Assembly: GCF_030486405.1 (NCBI RefSeq)
Contig: NZ_CP129613.1
Span: forward strand, 186,001-250,000
Length of the DNA stretch: 64,000 nucleotides
From: Mycolicibacterium sp. HK-90
Lineage (GTDB): Bacteria > Actinomycetota > Actinomycetes > Mycobacteriales > Mycobacteriaceae
Reading direction: 5' to 3'
Positions within the stretch are counted from its first letter, which is position 1. Each line of letters starts with the position of its first letter. Shown here in pieces: positions 14,034 to 31,863 of the stretch. The notes under the pieces were generated by a model that ran no database searches, was not told the DNA's origin, and was given only the letters and a program-made list of their open reading frames with translations. The position numbers and the translations under genes were made by a program.

Positions 14034-14500
14034 ACGCGCGCGACAGCCAACGGGCCCGCGTCTATGCCGCCGAGCAGTTCGTGCGGACCATGTTCGACCG
14101 TGCGGCCCAACATAGTTCGCGTGCGATCGACTTCTTCGGCACGTCGCTCACCCTGCCGCCAGAGGCGAAATTCGGATCCGTCGAGTCCGTGCAGCGCTAT
14201 GTCGACGACGTGGTCGCCCGGGTCGGTGCTGCGCCGGTGGCGGTCCGGCCGCGCCGGGGTGTCACCGCTGCGCACTATGAGCTGATCGACGGCCAGGCCG
14301 TCATCGCCGTGCCCGAACGCCACACCTGGGCCCTGCGAGAGTTGGTGGTGCTGCACGAGCTCGCCCACCACGTGAGTTGTGCGGATCCGCCCCACGGGTC
14401 GGATTTCGTCGCCGCCTTCTGCGAGCTGTGCGCGACGGTGATGGGTCCGGAGGTCGGGCTGGTGCTCCGGATGGTGTACGCCAAAGAAGGTGTCGTTTAG
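14030..14500 (+). CDS. Small HExxH putative metallohydrolase (TIGR04338/Rv0185-type)
   Basis: 156 aa. The zinc-binding helix is LRELVVLHELAHHVSC: HELAH gives two His ligands and the general base Glu. The nearby DPPHGSDFVAAFCELC supplies another His. No signal peptide is seen, so the protein is cytosolic. The length and single HExxH helix fit a small, uncharacterised actinobacterial metallohydrolase family. GTG start overlaps the DUF2786 stop by 4 bp, which indicates coupled expression. A protease or peptidase role is plausible but unproven. Confidence 0.78.
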   Translation: MNARDSQRARVYAAEQFVRTMFDRAAQHSSRAIDFFGTSLTLPPEAKFGSVESVQRYVDDVVARVGAAPVAVRPRRGVTAAHYELIDGQAVIAVPERHTWALRELVVLHELAHHVSCADPPHGSDFVAAFCELCATVMGPEVGLVLRMVYAKEGVV

Positions 14501-14510
14501 CCTGGCGCAC

Positions 14511-15167
14511 ATGACCGAACCCCGCGACGTCGACCTGATGTTCAACGAGGTGCTGCGCACCGAGGACGAGGCGTTGATTGCGGCGCGGGAGTCCGCGCAG
14601 GCCGAAGGCATGCCGGCCATCGAGGTGTCGGCCCAACACGGGAAGCTGCTGTCGCTGCTGGCCACCATCTCCGGAGCGCGACGGGTACTGGAGATCGGCA
14701 CCCTCGCCGGGTACAGCACCATCAACCTGGCCCGCGGAGTCGGCCCGGACGGCAGCGTCGTCACCCTGGAATACGAGCCACGTCATGCCGAGGTGGCCCG
14801 GGCAAATCTGGAGCGCGCCGGGGTCGCTGACCGCGTCGATGTGATCGTCAGTGCCGCACTGGACACGCTGCCGCGGCTGGCCGAGCGCGGTGACGTGTTC
14901 GACCTCGTCTTCATCGACGCCGACAAGGAGAACAACATCGGCTATGTCGAGTGGGCGGTCAAACTGGGCCGGCCGGGCTCGATCATCGTGGTGGACAACG
15001 TGACCCGGTTCGGCCGGGTGCTGGCCCCTGCGGCCGACGATCACCAGGCGCAGGCGGTACGCGACATGCTGGAGATGATGGGCAGCCATCCGCGATTGGA
15101 TACCGCAGCCATTCAGACCGTGGGTACCAAGGGCTGGGACGGATTCGCTGTCGCGCTCGTGAAGTAA
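14511..15167 (+). CDS. SAM-dependent O-methyltransferase (Rv0187-type)
   Basis: 218 aa from the ATG at 14511. TAGCCT ends 7 nt before it, which supports a leaderless start and argues against the longer frame from 14490. The fold is that of the catechol/caffeoyl-CoA O-methyltransferase family: VLEIGTLAGYSTINLARGV (SAM motif I), TLEYEPRHAEVARANLERAG (motif II), and DLVFIDADKENNIGYVEWA with metal-binding Asp residues plus VDNVTRFGRVL. Mg2+-dependent methylation of a catechol-like or hydroxylated substrate is expected. The position matches Rv0187 in M. tuberculosis. A hairpin 4 bp after the stop is interrupted by an IS110 element. Confidence 0.85.
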   Translation: MTEPRDVDLMFNEVLRTEDEALIAARESAQAEGMPAIEVSAQHGKLLSLLATISGARRVLEIGTLAGYSTINLARGVGPDGSVVTLEYEPRHAEVARANLERAGVADRVDVIVSAALDTLPRLAERGDVFDLVFIDADKENNIGYVEWAVKLGRPGSIIVVDNVTRFGRVLAPAADDHQAQAVRDMLEMMGSHPRLDTAAIQTVGTKGWDGFAVALVK

Positions 15168-15171
15168 TGCA

Positions 15172-15221
15172 CCGCGAGCGACCGCGTCTGTACGCAAATC
15201 ACGGCGTGTTGGCGTACAGAC
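15172..15221. terminator. Left part of a terminator-like hairpin split by the IS110 element
   Basis: Arm CCGCGAGCGACCGCGTCTGTACGC (two blocks, 15172-15195) has its partner in two pieces. GCGTACAGAC is at 15212-15221, left of the IS, and GGTCGCTCGCGG is at 16531-16542, right of it. Together they rebuild a 12 + 10 bp stem with a small internal loop. The original element lay between the O-methyltransferase (+) and mmpL (-) genes and probably ended both transcripts; it is now interrupted by about 1.3 kb. Confidence 0.75.
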
Positions 15222-15237
15222 ACTCAGTGTCACAGTG

Positions 15238-15416
15238 GACGTGCCGCTGTTGCGGTGGTTGGGTTTCTTTCCACCTGGTGTCTGGCTCCTACAGACACTG
15301 CCACCTTCGGGTTGGCAATCGTGCGTTATGCCGACGCCAGGTGGGAAGGACCGACCGGCGTGACTTGATAGGAGCGTGGCACCGCCCCCACTGAGATGTG
15401 TCCTGCCGGTCGGCCC
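15238..15416 (+). ncRNA. Candidate IS110 bridge RNA (target and donor loops readable)
   Basis: Three consecutive folds are visible. First, a 5' hairpin CCGC-tgtt-GCGG (15244-15255). Second, a 16-bp stem (15267-15282 with 15333-15348; two G-U pairs) capped by an internal loop and a UUCG hairpin (15299-15317). Third, a 9-bp stem (15351-15359 with 15405-15413) enclosing a second internal loop. In loop one TACAGACACT (15290-15299) equals the left junction 15215-15224. In loop two TAGGAGC (15369-15375) equals the right terminus 16521-16527. CACTGAG (15389-15395) is the reverse complement of the left terminus CTCAGTG (15223-15229). This is the order and logic of bridge RNAs (target loop, then donor loop). 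The span of about 175 nt is close to that of IS621, as I recall it. Confidence 0.8.
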
Positions 15417-15456
15417 GACCTTCACCTCATCCACCAGATGAAAGAAGGCACCGTCC

Positions 15457-16518
15457 ATGGTCGTCGTTGGAACCGATGTACACAAGCGCACCCATACCTT
15501 CGTCGCCGTCGACGAAGTCGGTCGCAAACTGGGCGAGAAGGTAGTCAAGGCCACCACCGAGGGACACCTCAAAGCATTGGCCTGGGCTCGCGAGCAGTTC
15601 GGGGAGGAAGTGCTGTGGGGTATCGAGGACTGCCGCAACCTCTCGGCGCGCCTCGAGCGTGATCTGCTCACCGCCGGGCAGTCGGTGGTGCGGGTGGCCC
15701 CGAAACTGATGTCTCAAGCTCGCGCTTCGGCGCGGACTCGCGGGAAGTCCGATCCGATCGATGCGTTAGCTGTCGCTCAGGCAGTGTTGCGCCATCCAGA
15801 TCTGCCAATAGCCACCCACGATGAGGTCTCCCGTGAGCTCAAACTATTGGTTGATCGTCGTGAAGACCTTGTTGCGCAACAGACTTCAACGATCAACCGG
15901 CTCCGTCAACGAATCCACGAACTCGACCCCGCCGCCGAACCCAAACCCGCATCGCTGCACCGCGCCAAGCCCTGCGCAGTGCTTCAAGACTGGCTCGGCA
16001 CCCAGCACGGCGTGTTGGCTGAGCTGGCTCGCGATGAGCTCGCCGACATCATGGGCATGACCGAGGCGATCGACGCCCTGGCCGCTCGTATCGGCGAGCG
16101 GGTGCAGAAGGTGGCCCCAACATTGTTGGCGTTGCCCGGTTGCGGTGAGCTGACTGCAGCCAAGCTCGTCGCCGAGGCCGCCGGCATCAGCCGTTTCCGC
16201 AGCGAAGCTGCCTTCGCCCGCCACAACGGCACCGCACCGATCCCAGTCTGGTCGGGTAACACCGCCGGGCGCGTCCGATTGAACCGCTCCGGCAACCGCC
16301 AACTCAACGCCGCGCTACACCGGATTGCCATCACCCAGCTCCGCATCCCTGACAGCGCCGGCCAGCGGTACTACCGCAGCCGCCTCGCCAACAAGGCAAC
16401 CAAAGACGCTCTACGCTGCCTCAAACGCCATCTCTCCCGCACCGTCTACCGCAGCCTCCACGCCGACAAACACCTCAGCCACACCCACGAAAAACCCCTT
16501 GAAGCCATCGCCGCTTGA
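15457..16518 (+). CDS. IS110-family transposase/recombinase
   Basis: 353 aa, complete. The N-terminal RuvC-like DEDD_Tnp_IS110 domain has acidic residues Asp7 (VGTDVHK), Glu57 (WGIEDC), Asp99 and Asp102 (KSDPIDALA). A coiled linker (about 130-160) is followed by the C-terminal transposase_20 domain: LALPGCGELTAAKLVAEAAGISRF, then the catalytic serine Ser266 in VWSGNTAGR and a basic tail. The enzyme joins DNA under guidance of the element's own RNA and makes no target duplication. All catalytic residues are present, so it is probably active. AAAGAAGG lies about 8 nt before the ATG. The gene sits 3' of the candidate bridge RNA, as in the IS110 subgroup. Confidence 0.92.
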   Translation: MVVVGTDVHKRTHTFVAVDEVGRKLGEKVVKATTEGHLKALAWAREQFGEEVLWGIEDCRNLSARLERDLLTAGQSVVRVAPKLMSQARASARTRGKSDPIDALAVAQAVLRHPDLPIATHDEVSRELKLLVDRREDLVAQQTSTINRLRQRIHELDPAAEPKPASLHRAKPCAVLQDWLGTQHGVLAELARDELADIMGMTEAIDALAARIGERVQKVAPTLLALPGCGELTAAKLVAEAAGISRFRSEAAFARHNGTAPIPVWSGNTAGRVRLNRSGNRQLNAALHRIAITQLRIPDSAGQRYYRSRLANKATKDALRCLKRHLSRTVYRSLHADKHLSHTHEKPLEAIAA

Positions 16519-16545
16519 CATAGGAGCAATGGTCGCTCGCGGAGA

Positions 16546-19446
16546 CTAAGCGAGGGTGTCCTGCGGCTCGCGCTGGATCGGCTGGGGCCAGGGCTCGGGC
16601 TTGGGCCGCTGGCGCACCATCTGCGGCCACCAGAACCACTTGCCGAGCAGCGCCGCAATGGACGGCGTCATGAACGCGCGGATAACCAGGGTGTCGAACA
16701 GCAGACCCAGGCCGATCGTGGTACCCACCTGGCCGATCACCGCCAGCTCGCTGACCGCCATCGACATCATGGTGAACGCGAACACCAGACCGGCGGCCGT
16801 CACCACCGAGCCACTGCCGCCCATGGCGCGGATGATGCCCGTGTTGAGCCCGGCGTGGATCTCCTCTTTGAGCCGGGAGACCAGTAGCAGGTTGTAGTCC
16901 GCGCCCACGGCCAACAGGATGATCACCGACATGGCCAGCACCATCCAGTGCAGTTCGAGCCCGATCAGGTGCTGCCAGATCAGCACGGACAGACCGAACG
17001 CGCTGCCCAGCGAGATGACCACGGTGCCGACGATGACGGCGGCGGCCACCACGCTGCGGGTGATGAGCAGCATGATGATGAAAATCAGGCAGAGCGAGGC
17101 GATTCCGGCGATCAGCAGGTCGTAGTTGGCGCCTTCCTGCATGTCCTTGAAGGTGGCCGCGGTACCGCCGAGGTAGATCTTGGAGCCCTCCAGCGGGGTG
17201 CCCTTGATGGCTTCCTTGGCCGCCAGCTTGATGGCATCGATGTGTTTGATGCCCTCGGGGCTCATCGGGTCGCCCTCGTGGCTGATGATGAAGCGCACCG
17301 CGTGCCCGTCGGGGGACAGGAACATCTTCATGCCGCGTTTGAAGTCTTCGTTCTCGAAGGTTTCCGGCGGCAGATAGAACGAGTCGTCGTTCTTGGCGGC
17401 GTCGAAGGCCTGACCCATGGCGGTGGAGTTGTCCTGCATCGCCGCCATCTGGTCCTGCAAACCACCCTGGGTGGCCTGCATGGTCAGCATCATGGTCTTC
17501 ATCGTCTTCATGGTCACGATCATCGGCTGCATGTTGGCGATCATCACCGGGATCAGCGCGTTCATCTTGTCCATGTCGGGCACGATCTGTTCGAAATCGG
17601 CTGTCATGGTGTCGATTCCGTCAAGCGTGTCGAACACCGAGCGCAACGACCAGCACATCGGGATGTTGTAGCAGTGCGGTTCCCAGTACAGGTAGTTGCG
17701 GATCGGCCGGAAGAAATCGTCGAAATCCGAGATGTTGTCCCGCAATTCCTTGATGTCGTCGAGCATTCCGTGCATCTTGCCGACCATGCTGTTCATGACT
17801 TCGCGCATCTGCTCCATCAGCGCGATCATCTTGTCCATCGTGTCGATGGTGACCTGCATTTCGTCGGCCTGCTTGAGCATGTCGGCCATGCGGTCCTGCA
17901 TGTACTTCTGATTCATGGTCTGCGTCGTGCCCTGCATGCTGATGTTGAACGGGATCGAGGTGTGCTCGATCGGCGTTCCCTGCGGGCGCGTGATGGCCTG
18001 GACCCGAGAAATGCCGGGCACCTGGAAGATTCGCTTGGCGATCCGCTCGATGACCAGGAAGTCGGCCGAGTTGCGCAGATCGTGGTCGCTCTCCACCAGC
18101 AGCAGCTCGGGATTCATCCGGGCCGGGGAGAAGTGCCGGTCGGCCGCGGCGTACCCGCTGTTGGCCGGAAGGTCGGCAGGCATGTAGTCGCGGTCGTTGT
18201 AGTTGGTCCGGTAGCCCGGCAGGGTCAGCAGACCGACGAGGGAGACCGCGATGGTGGCGATCAGGATCGGCCCGGGCCAGCGCACCACGGCCGCACCGAC
18301 CTTGCGCCAGCCTCGGGTGCGCGAGGCTCGCTTGGGCTCCATGACCTTGCCGAACTTGGTGGCCACGGTGATGATCGCCGGACCGATGGTCAATGCTGCG
18401 ACCACCACGGTCACCATGCCGATGGCCAGCGGGATACCGAGCGACTGGAAGTAGGGCAGCCGGGTGAAGTGCAGGCACAACGTGGCGCCGGCGATGGTCA
18501 GGCCCGAGCCCAGCACCACGTGCGCGGTGCCGTGGAACATCGTGTAATAGGCCTGTTCCCGGTCTTCGCCGACACTTCGGGCCTCTTGATATCGGCCGAT
18601 CAGGAAGATGGCGTAGTCGGTGGCCGCCGCGATGGCCAGGGTCACCAGCAGGTTGGTGGCGAATGTCGACAGCCCGATGATCTCGTAGTAGCCGAGGAAG
18701 GCGATCACACCCCGGGCTGCGGTCAGTGACATCACCACCATGACCAGGGTGAGGATGACGGTGATGATGGAGCGATAGACCATCAGCAGCATGATGATGA
18801 TGACCGTGAAGGTCAGCGCCTCGATCATCCGCATGCTGCGGTTACCGGCGATCTCCTGATCGGCCGACAGCGCGGCCGGGCCGGTCACATACGCCTTGAC
18901 CCCATTGGGTGCCGCCACGGATTTGACGATGTCCCCGACGGCCTCTACGGATTCGTTGGCCAGGGCCTCACCCTGGTTACCGGCGGTGTAAACCTGCACG
19001 TAAGAGGACTTGCCGTCGGAGCTCTGGGCGCCGGAGGCGGTCAGCGGGTCGCCCCAGAAGTCCTGGACGTGCTCGACGTGCTCTTTGTCGGCCTCGAGCT
19101 TGGCGACAATCTCGTCGTAGTACTTGTGAGCGTCGTCGCCGAGGGTGTCCTCCGCCTCGAGCACGACCATCACCGAGCTGTTGGACTTGAACTCCTGGAA
19201 CACCTCGCCGACGCGCTTCATGGCGATCATCGACGGGGCGTCGTCCGGCGTCATGGACACCGAGCGCATCTCCCCGACCTTTTCCAGCTGGGGAACGATG
19301 GTGTTGAAGACGCCGATGACCGCGATCCAGCCGATGATGATCGGGATGGCCAGGCGCCGGATCCACTTGGCGATGCCACCGTGGTTCGTGTGCTTCGGCG
19401 CGGAGGCGACCGGGATCGAGTCGGTCGGGGTGTCGTAATTGCTCAT
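16546..19446 (-). CDS. MmpL family RND transporter (MmpL4/MmpL5-like)
   Basis: 966 aa with two RND halves. Each half has a soluble porter region and a TM bundle, with proton-relay Asp-Tyr pairs in [17 protein letters not shown] (first half) and [16 protein letters not shown] (second half). A long Met-rich coiled-coil insertion in the second extracytoplasmic domain (about residues 510-690, repeats such as [19 protein letters not shown]) is typical of MmpL4/MmpL5-type siderophore or lipid exporters. The start overlaps the stop of an mmpS gene by 4 bp (ATGA), the usual mmpS-mmpL order. A divergent TetR gene upstream is the likely regulator. Cargo cannot be read from sequence: mycobactin-type siderophores, glycopeptidolipids or drugs are all possible. 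Confidence 0.88.
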
Positions 19447-31778: not shown

Positions 31779-31792
31779 CTCTACCGCGCCGC

Positions 31793-31851
31793 GAGAGTGC
31801 GTGGAATGTCGACGTTTTGCGGTGTATTGGCCGACAGACACGCACGCTCGT
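31793..31851. terminator. CGCGAG-headed long hairpin downstream of ilvD
   Basis: CGAGAGTGCGTG (31793-31804) pairs with CACGCACGCTCG (31840-31851) with one mismatch, and TGTCG (31808-31812) pairs with CGACA (31833-31837). It starts 12 bp after the ilvD stop on the minus strand. It resembles the hairpins at 6914 and 15172 in being headed by GCGAG and placed at a gene end. Confidence 0.6.
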
Positions 31852-31863
31852 GGTGCAGAGAAA

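Follow-up and report, generated by a model that had tools for sequence, protein, structure and literature searches.

The left non-coding end of an IS110-group element in the genome of Mycolicibacterium sp. HK-90 very probably encodes a bridge RNA that guides insertion into a REP-like palindrome, with loop 1 reading the target and loop 2 reading the ends of the element, to judge from its sequence and that of its relatives. The element lies in a stretch of 64,000 nucleotides that was analysed as a whole (hereafter the window), in a host genome of 6.49 Mb on a single contig. We regard it as a predicted bridge-RNA element aimed at REP-like palindromes: the design is that of IS621, the lineage is another, and so is the rule by which its junctions are made. 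A preliminary description of this DNA had read the left end as a bridge RNA carrying target guides and then donor guides, and that reading is now supported by covariation among the left ends of homologues and by empty sites. It is the relatives, and not the short matches alone, that lift the structure and its guides above chance. Together they make up a natural series of reprogrammed bridge RNAs in one genus, with 79 insertions, 44 types of left guide and three classes of target. Beside a single E. coli element, evolution can then serve as a source for the rules that relate guide to target (register, tolerance, handshake and whether a core is needed).

The element and the palindrome it splits

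The boundaries of the element were set by a second, identical copy in the same genome and by empty sites in sister genomes.

15172..15223, + strand: left part of a split host palindrome (from the repeat at the second copy, 21 intact palindromes and a sister-genome empty site)
15215-15223, + strand: left target TACAGACAC, the last 9 nt of the left palindrome part, on the same evidence
15224..16530, + strand: IS110-group element, 1307 bp (two identical copies; junctions from empty sites)
15457..16518, + strand: IS110 recombinase, 353 aa (PF01548 and PF02371; kin of the ISCro4 and IS621 recombinases)
16531..16542, + strand: right part of the split host palindrome, GGTCGCTCGCGG (second copy, intact palindromes and empty sites)

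The second copy, at about 3.81 Mb, is identical to window positions 15212-16542, and its outer flanks differ; the identity extends 12 bp past the element on each side because each copy entered a repeated palindrome at the same position. Set against the empty repeat, the insertion reads TACAGACAC, then 15224-16530, then GGTCGCTC, with clean junctions and zero bases duplicated or lost, and the right target is formed by the first 5 nt of the right flank (16531..16542). The non-coding left end measures 233 bp and the right end after the stop codon 12 bp. To the left lies an ORF (14490-15167, + strand) that we take, from reading its translation, to be methyltransferase-like; the one to the right (16546-19446, - strand) is, by the same kind of reading, presumably MmpL-like.

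The target is a 56-bp palindrome of which the host genome holds 21 intact copies (GAGCGACC...GGTCGCTC; reversed-pattern controls gave 2 and 3), and with a target repeated in this manner the element can be said, like IS621, to insert into REP-like hairpins. Fifteen of the 21, by our count, carry TACAGACACGGTCGCTC. The REP-like family, with units of about 56 bp, comprises these GGTCG-type copies and four GCACG-type right arms in the host genome, where sites with the shorter left part CAGACAC and ending in CGCTCG number 26, four of them GCACG. One GCACG-type copy lies inside the window itself, at 31835-31850 (region about 31790-31855).

The window locus was compared beside the left-hand gene in 29 other genomes, which with its own make up the best 30 of 350 matching genomes. 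Five hold an empty GGTCG-type palindrome (L145, L146, L147, L149 and L156, the last with one base different), 11 a GCACG-type palindrome and one (L153) another element of the same family, while none of these states was found in 12 of the 29. The empty sites fix the junctions at TACAGACAC and GGTCGCTC, with a left-guide match of 9/9. The L153 element has a left guide of the L064 type (AGACACGCAC) and sits in a GCACG-type palindrome just after the methyltransferase-like gene; the same intergenic locus has thus been hit independently by that element and by the element of the window.

These junctions also bear on the core. In IS621 target and donor have a core dinucleotide in common, and the preliminary description had proposed CA as the best fit here. 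Because the insertion shows no duplication against the empty repeat, CA is excluded as a shared core: the empty target has AC, which stays on the left, and the element has AT, which stays on the right, so that no dinucleotide common to both is found. A CA core would need a right flank beginning ATGGTCG, and the empty repeats read CGGTCG. Searches for empty sites on the assumption of a common CA returned 7 hits at 3 mismatches, and those with another spacing 3 hits at 3 mismatches, in both cases no more than the reversed-pattern controls. If a core of two bases is to be kept at all, as understood for IS621 (PMC11208158), it would be one in which target AC stays left and element AT right. Target duplication is held not to be characteristic of the family in the accessible text of the seekRNA paper (PMC11187229).

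The recombinase carries both expected domains, the RuvC-like DEDD domain (PF01548, 2.1e-27) and Transposase_20 (PF02371, 2.7e-19). Among solved chains its closest match is the ISCro4 recombinase (PDB 9t56, E 8.1e-10), and the IS621 recombinase is a distant relative (E 5.6e-9). Ser266 aligns, as counted on the alignment, with the serine of the IS621 chain taken as S241, given an assumed numbering offset of 2 residues. The layout is that of the IS110 group, with a long non-coding left end holding the predicted RNA, a short right end and no duplication beyond a core. In the IS1111 group the RNA lies in the right end, and subterminal inverted repeats of 7-17 bp are present; in the present element the RNA is predicted for the left end, with no more than 12 bp on the right after the stop codon.

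The predicted RNA and its guides

The structure and guides of the predicted RNA are as follows.

15243..15424, + strand: predicted bridge RNA, ends approximate (fold z -5.49; named structure kept across 26 relatives)
15243..15256, + strand: 5' hairpin (from the fold; 59.2% of aligned cells pair, so that support across relatives is weak)
15272..15343, + strand: target-binding domain, stem 15272-15286 with 15330-15343
15290..15298, + strand: left target guide UACAGACAC (9/9 with the left flank; covariation)
15320..15324, + strand: right target guide CGUGC, complement of GCACG (register fixed by relatives)
15325..15328, + strand: GUUA, handshake-like, facing the element right end in relatives (counts across relatives)
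15345..15423, + strand: donor-binding domain, stems 15345-15349 with 15419-15423 and 15351-15359 with 15405-15413
15368..15374, + strand: left donor guide AUAGGAG, identical to 16520-16526 and nearly invariant in the family
15389..15394, + strand: right donor guide CACUGA, then GAU; complement of TCAGTG at 15224-15229, nearly invariant

The RNA from 15243 to 15424 folds at -96.6 kcal/mol (z -5.49), and none of 200 shuffled sequences was as stable. Its fold bears out the 5' hairpin and the two following stem-loop domains of the preliminary description; in the minimum-energy structure an extra helix closes both domains, and part of loop 1 is paired. An RNAalifold consensus folded the donor domain differently and was set aside, and an IS621-like structure of 39 pairs was named and counted instead on 26 non-redundant left ends. 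Of its cells 90.4% are paired (89.7% when shuffled; reached in 3 of 500 shuffles), six pairs are changed on both sides (2.9; 2 of 500), and the covariation score of 0.123 (0.111; 3 of 500) lies above all slid controls. A structure with two internal-loop domains is therefore conserved, with a modest excess over the shuffles, as most stem positions hardly vary. The best case is the stem of the target domain, with 14 pairs, 99.2% of cells paired and three pairs changed on both sides; the worst-supported helix is the 5' hairpin (59.2%), in part from slippage of the alignment there. Rfam returned no match at its gathering thresholds.

The sequence matches on which the preliminary description had relied hold up, with one correction. 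Loop 1 does carry the left junction between chromosome and element, TACAGACACT at 15290-15299 being identical to 15215-15224, and in loop 2 (A)TAGGAGC at 15368-15375 equals the right terminus at 16520-16527, just as CACTGAG at 15389-15395 reads as the reverse complement of the left-terminal CTCAGTG (15223-15229). The donor guides thus match both ends of the element, and their near-invariance leaves no covariation to be read from them. The right target guide had been expected near GCGTTATG and noted not to fit the right flank; the mismatch stands, and the place does not, the guide being CGTGC at 15320-15324, a few bases further 5'. A register pairing AUCGU with ACGGT (one wobble) was dropped, since the relatives fix the register 3' of AUCGU. 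In that register CGUGC agrees with the actual right flank, GGTCG, at 3/5 in both copies. The host genome holds 19 sites of the form TACAGACACGNNCG, which join the full left-guide site to a CG-spaced right half, and these read GGTCG in 17 cases and GGCCG in two; none of the 19 reads GCACG, the full match to the right guide. The element either derives from a host whose repeats carry GCACG, or has a right guide that is read loosely; its two insertions suggest that matching in full on the left and at 3/5 on the right was enough.

A promoter would be assembled only when the two ends of the element are joined in an excised circle.

16515..16520, + strand: TTGACA over the recombinase stop codon, candidate -35 in the circle (76/76 elements with both ends)
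15231..15236, + strand: CACAGT, candidate -10, formed only in the circle, 17 bp from TTGACA (conserved anatomy)

Once the ends are joined, 72 of 76 family elements read TTGACA-N17-CANNNT and the other four have GANNNT in place of CANNNT; a [CT]ANNNT motif was found at none of the other spacings from 12 to 23 among the 76. As these elements are close relatives, the anatomy speaks for conservation rather than for function. IS621 has a natural promoter in its RE-LE context (PMC11208160).

In the mechanism that we propose, the recombinase would bind the bridge RNA encoded in the left end of its own element. In loop 1, UACAGACAC would pair with the left half of the target, as sequence match and covariation suggest, and CGUGC with the right half, in a register taken from covariation and with an imperfect match here; in loop 2, to go by sequence match, AUAGGAG would pair with the right end of the element and CACUGA with the left. 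Excision would join the ends in a circle, in which the TTGACA-N17-CANNNT promoter, going by its anatomy, would drive the bridge RNA from a predicted start at about 15243, the beginning of the 5' hairpin. Reintegration would then take place in a REP-like palindrome between TACAGACAC and GGTCGCTC with no net duplication, as the two copies and the empty sites show, and after strand exchange a handshake would form between the right end of the element and the bases lying 3' of the right guide, as the counts given below suggest.

Guides and targets across relatives

A protein scan of genome contigs gave three relatives only, and whole genomes were therefore searched with the DNA of the element. Covered were 396 genomes of the genus, selected out of a larger set; 187 of the 396 matched, many of them partially; at most a few places were scored per genome, so that copy numbers are lower bounds. 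Of 82 left ends read, 79 were counted, L123 being dropped because its guide was not parsed and L011 and L012 as duplicates of L062 and L072. Further left ends were left unread in L035 and L036 (unrecognised), L033 (too short) and L137-L142 (no recombinase in the fragment). The left-guide comparison omits L062 (no usable left flank) and L069 (left flank mis-parsed), and the right-guide comparison omits L063, L066, L103 and L034 (no right flank). Right end and target divide the family into three clades. Clade A, to which the element of the window belongs, has the right end CAAT (AAAT in L065) and lies mostly in REP-like palindromes; clade B, found before start codons, has AAAC (TAAC in L088); clade C has CTAT or CTAC and lies in another palindrome, TTTTGCGTC followed across the junction by TGCTCGC, and variants of it.

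Compared across homologous left ends, as had been suggested, both target guides follow their targets among relatives that have different ones, the right guide at the level of the family. The left guide agrees with the left flank at 151 of 162 nt over 18 insertions in clade A (permuted mean 109.9; 0 of 20,000 permutations), at 348 of 441 nt over 49 insertions in clade B (253.4; 0 of 20,000), where the best of three offsets was taken for true and permuted pairs alike, and at 87 of 90 nt over 10 insertions in clade C (69.2; 2 of 20,000). For the 5-nt right guide the agreement is 75 of 85 over 17 insertions in clade A (permuted 49.6; 157 of 20,000), which has five guide types only and hence few distinct shuffles, and 209 of 240 over 48 insertions in clade B (171.7; 27 of 20,000); clade C has a single type, so that the comparison covers the other two. 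The insertions are related by descent, and all these permutation counts are not strict probabilities. Twelve of the 17 clade A right guides match at 5/5, the targets GGCCG, GCGCG, GCACG and GCTCG having a guide apiece; the other five match at 3/5, namely both copies in the window's genome, L072, L092 and L093. The clearest single case of a guide following its target is the L064 type, where insertion took place 4 nt away in a palindrome of the same kind and the guide has moved likewise. Clade C consists of L118 and L128-L136, with left guides matching at 8-9/9; its members L118, L132, L134 and L135 have a longer left end.

The four bases 3' of the right guide behave otherwise. Taken as complement, they agree with the right end of the element at 49 of 68 positions in clade A, 190 of 192 in clade B and 32 of 40 in clade C, and with the end of the left flank at 29 of 64, 52 of 192 and 16 of 40, the denominators here being taken from the number of rows; the differences rest on three clades and so on few independent events. 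That these bases match the element and not the target would fit handshake pairing after exchange. The matching stretch is 3-4 nt long and takes in the position that a core would occupy; the element of the window agrees at two of the four (TAAC vs CAAT).

How far the targets are palindromes was measured by a strict arm test (complement of the first 9 right-flank bases, at least 8/9 within 75 nt to the left), which picked out 7 of 16 insertions in clade A and 2 of 10 in clade C. Many of the arms tested are imperfect or shorter, and L072 and L093 have no palindrome at their insertion site, so that REP-like targets are well shown for the element of the window and not for every relative.

Could the structured left end be a mere leader or attenuator of the recombinase gene, its guide-like matches due to chance? 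It does lie directly 5' of that gene, and the donor-guide matches span only 6-7 nt, but the bases of loop 1 vary with the flanking host DNA in three clades, which a leader leaves unexplained, and we give this reading hardly any credence. Also very unlikely is an origin of the second copy in homologous recombination between repeats, in place of guided insertion. Although the same short repeat flanks both copies, the identity reaches just 12 bp past the element at either end, very little for a homologous exchange, and pairs of clade B copies within one genome lie before different genes.

More weight, though still well below an even chance, belongs to a bridge RNA whose target loop is decayed or borrowed, with a right guide made for the GCACG repeats of another host, non-functional here and leaving the element stuck; new insertions at TACAGACACGGTCG sites would then be unexpected. 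The 3/5 right guide in both copies and the lack of any TACAGACACGCACG site in the host genome speak for it. Against it, the presence of identical copies at two sites points to recent movement under the same guide, the frame of the recombinase is intact, and three other clade A insertions (L072, L092 and L093) likewise match at 3/5. We therefore retain a guiding bridge RNA as the preferred explanation of the left end.

Known systems and insertion before start codons

The nearest model is IS621, an IS110-group element of E. coli, which likewise has its guide RNA in the left non-coding end, the order of 5' hairpin, target loop and donor loop, a left guide of the same sense and a right guide that is complementary, REP-type targets and a promoter over the joined ends (PMC11208160; PMC11208158). 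Its left target guide holds about 9 target bases including the core, its right guide complements the other side (PMC11208160; PMC11208158), and 2-nt handshake guides pair with non-cognate DNA after exchange (PMC11208158). Unlike IS621 as described there, the element of the window lacks a common CT core, AC of the target and AT of the element each keeping to its own side, and the right-guide agreement of its family covers 5 nt, plus 3-4 handshake-like nt. Its recombinase is distant from that of IS621, moreover, and its targets are mycobacterial palindromes. The seekRNA elements ISEc21 (IS110 type) and ISEc11 (IS1111 type) resemble it in that an RNA from the non-coding region matches both target strands, insertion proceeds without target duplication and changes of guide among relatives redirect them naturally; their recombinases and targets differ (PMC11187229). 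No mention of Mycobacter was found in the accessible text of that paper.

Clade B comprises L069, L073-L088, L094-L117, L119-L122 and L124-L127. In all 48 insertions with a right flank an ATG or GTG stands 2 nt after the junction, and in 45 the frame from the first such codon runs for at least 80 codons. TANNNT lies 4-5 nt to the left of the junction in 41 of the 48, further off in four, and was not found to the left of the junction in three (one of them mis-parsed). When the site is empty, those 4-5 nt put the box 6-7 nt from the start codon. At 73% of the primary start sites of M. tuberculosis a TANNNT motif is centred 7-12 bp upstream (PMC3898074), and given this spacing the clade B targets look, by anatomy, like leaderless promoters. 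The clade B right end, TAGGAGAAAC, puts AGGAG 6 nt before the start codon, and the whole looks like guided insertion that separates a leaderless-type promoter from its gene.

We lean, if only slightly, towards a wider reading in which the guides aim at the punctuation of host genes: at REP-like hairpins in clades A and C, and at leaderless promoters in clade B, where the left guide would read the -10 box and the right guide the start codon, insertion would rewire the gene through the ribosome-binding site in TAGGAGAAAC, and a handshake of 3-4 nt would replace the core. The captured host promoter may then transcribe the bridge RNA and the recombinase. If this is true, a clade B insertion would rewire the gene and not destroy it, which suggests how an element can land in the promoters of working genes without silencing them. 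Clade B may be a new variant of the bridge-RNA design; no description of leaderless-promoter targeting by such elements was found in the open-licence literature, as covered by titles and the beginnings of abstracts. The nearest known case is the motif of IS900 from Mycobacterium avium subsp. paratuberculosis, CATGNNNNNNTCTCCTT (PMC8141618), which contains CATG, as do the right targets of clade B. IS900, like the element of the window, is a mycobacterial member of the IS110 family without target repeats, and the accessible text describes no guide RNA for it (PMC8141618). In contrast to clade B, its motif pairs CATG with an apparent complement of a ribosome-binding site, by our own reading, and not with a -10 box.

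One clade B locus was followed in empty and occupied form, with L116, L114 and L108 as examples. The gene there we take to be dcd, from reading its start. Thirty-three dcd loci were examined, three taken as insertions and the others being the best 30 of 142 matching genomes. Twenty-seven are empty, all reading TANNNT-N6-GTG, and six, in five genomes, carry an element 2 nt before the GTG; the insertion in L116, set against the empty L173, added no duplication. The same base before dcd holds a clade B element in L183, L191 (the genome of L108), L198, L114 and L116.
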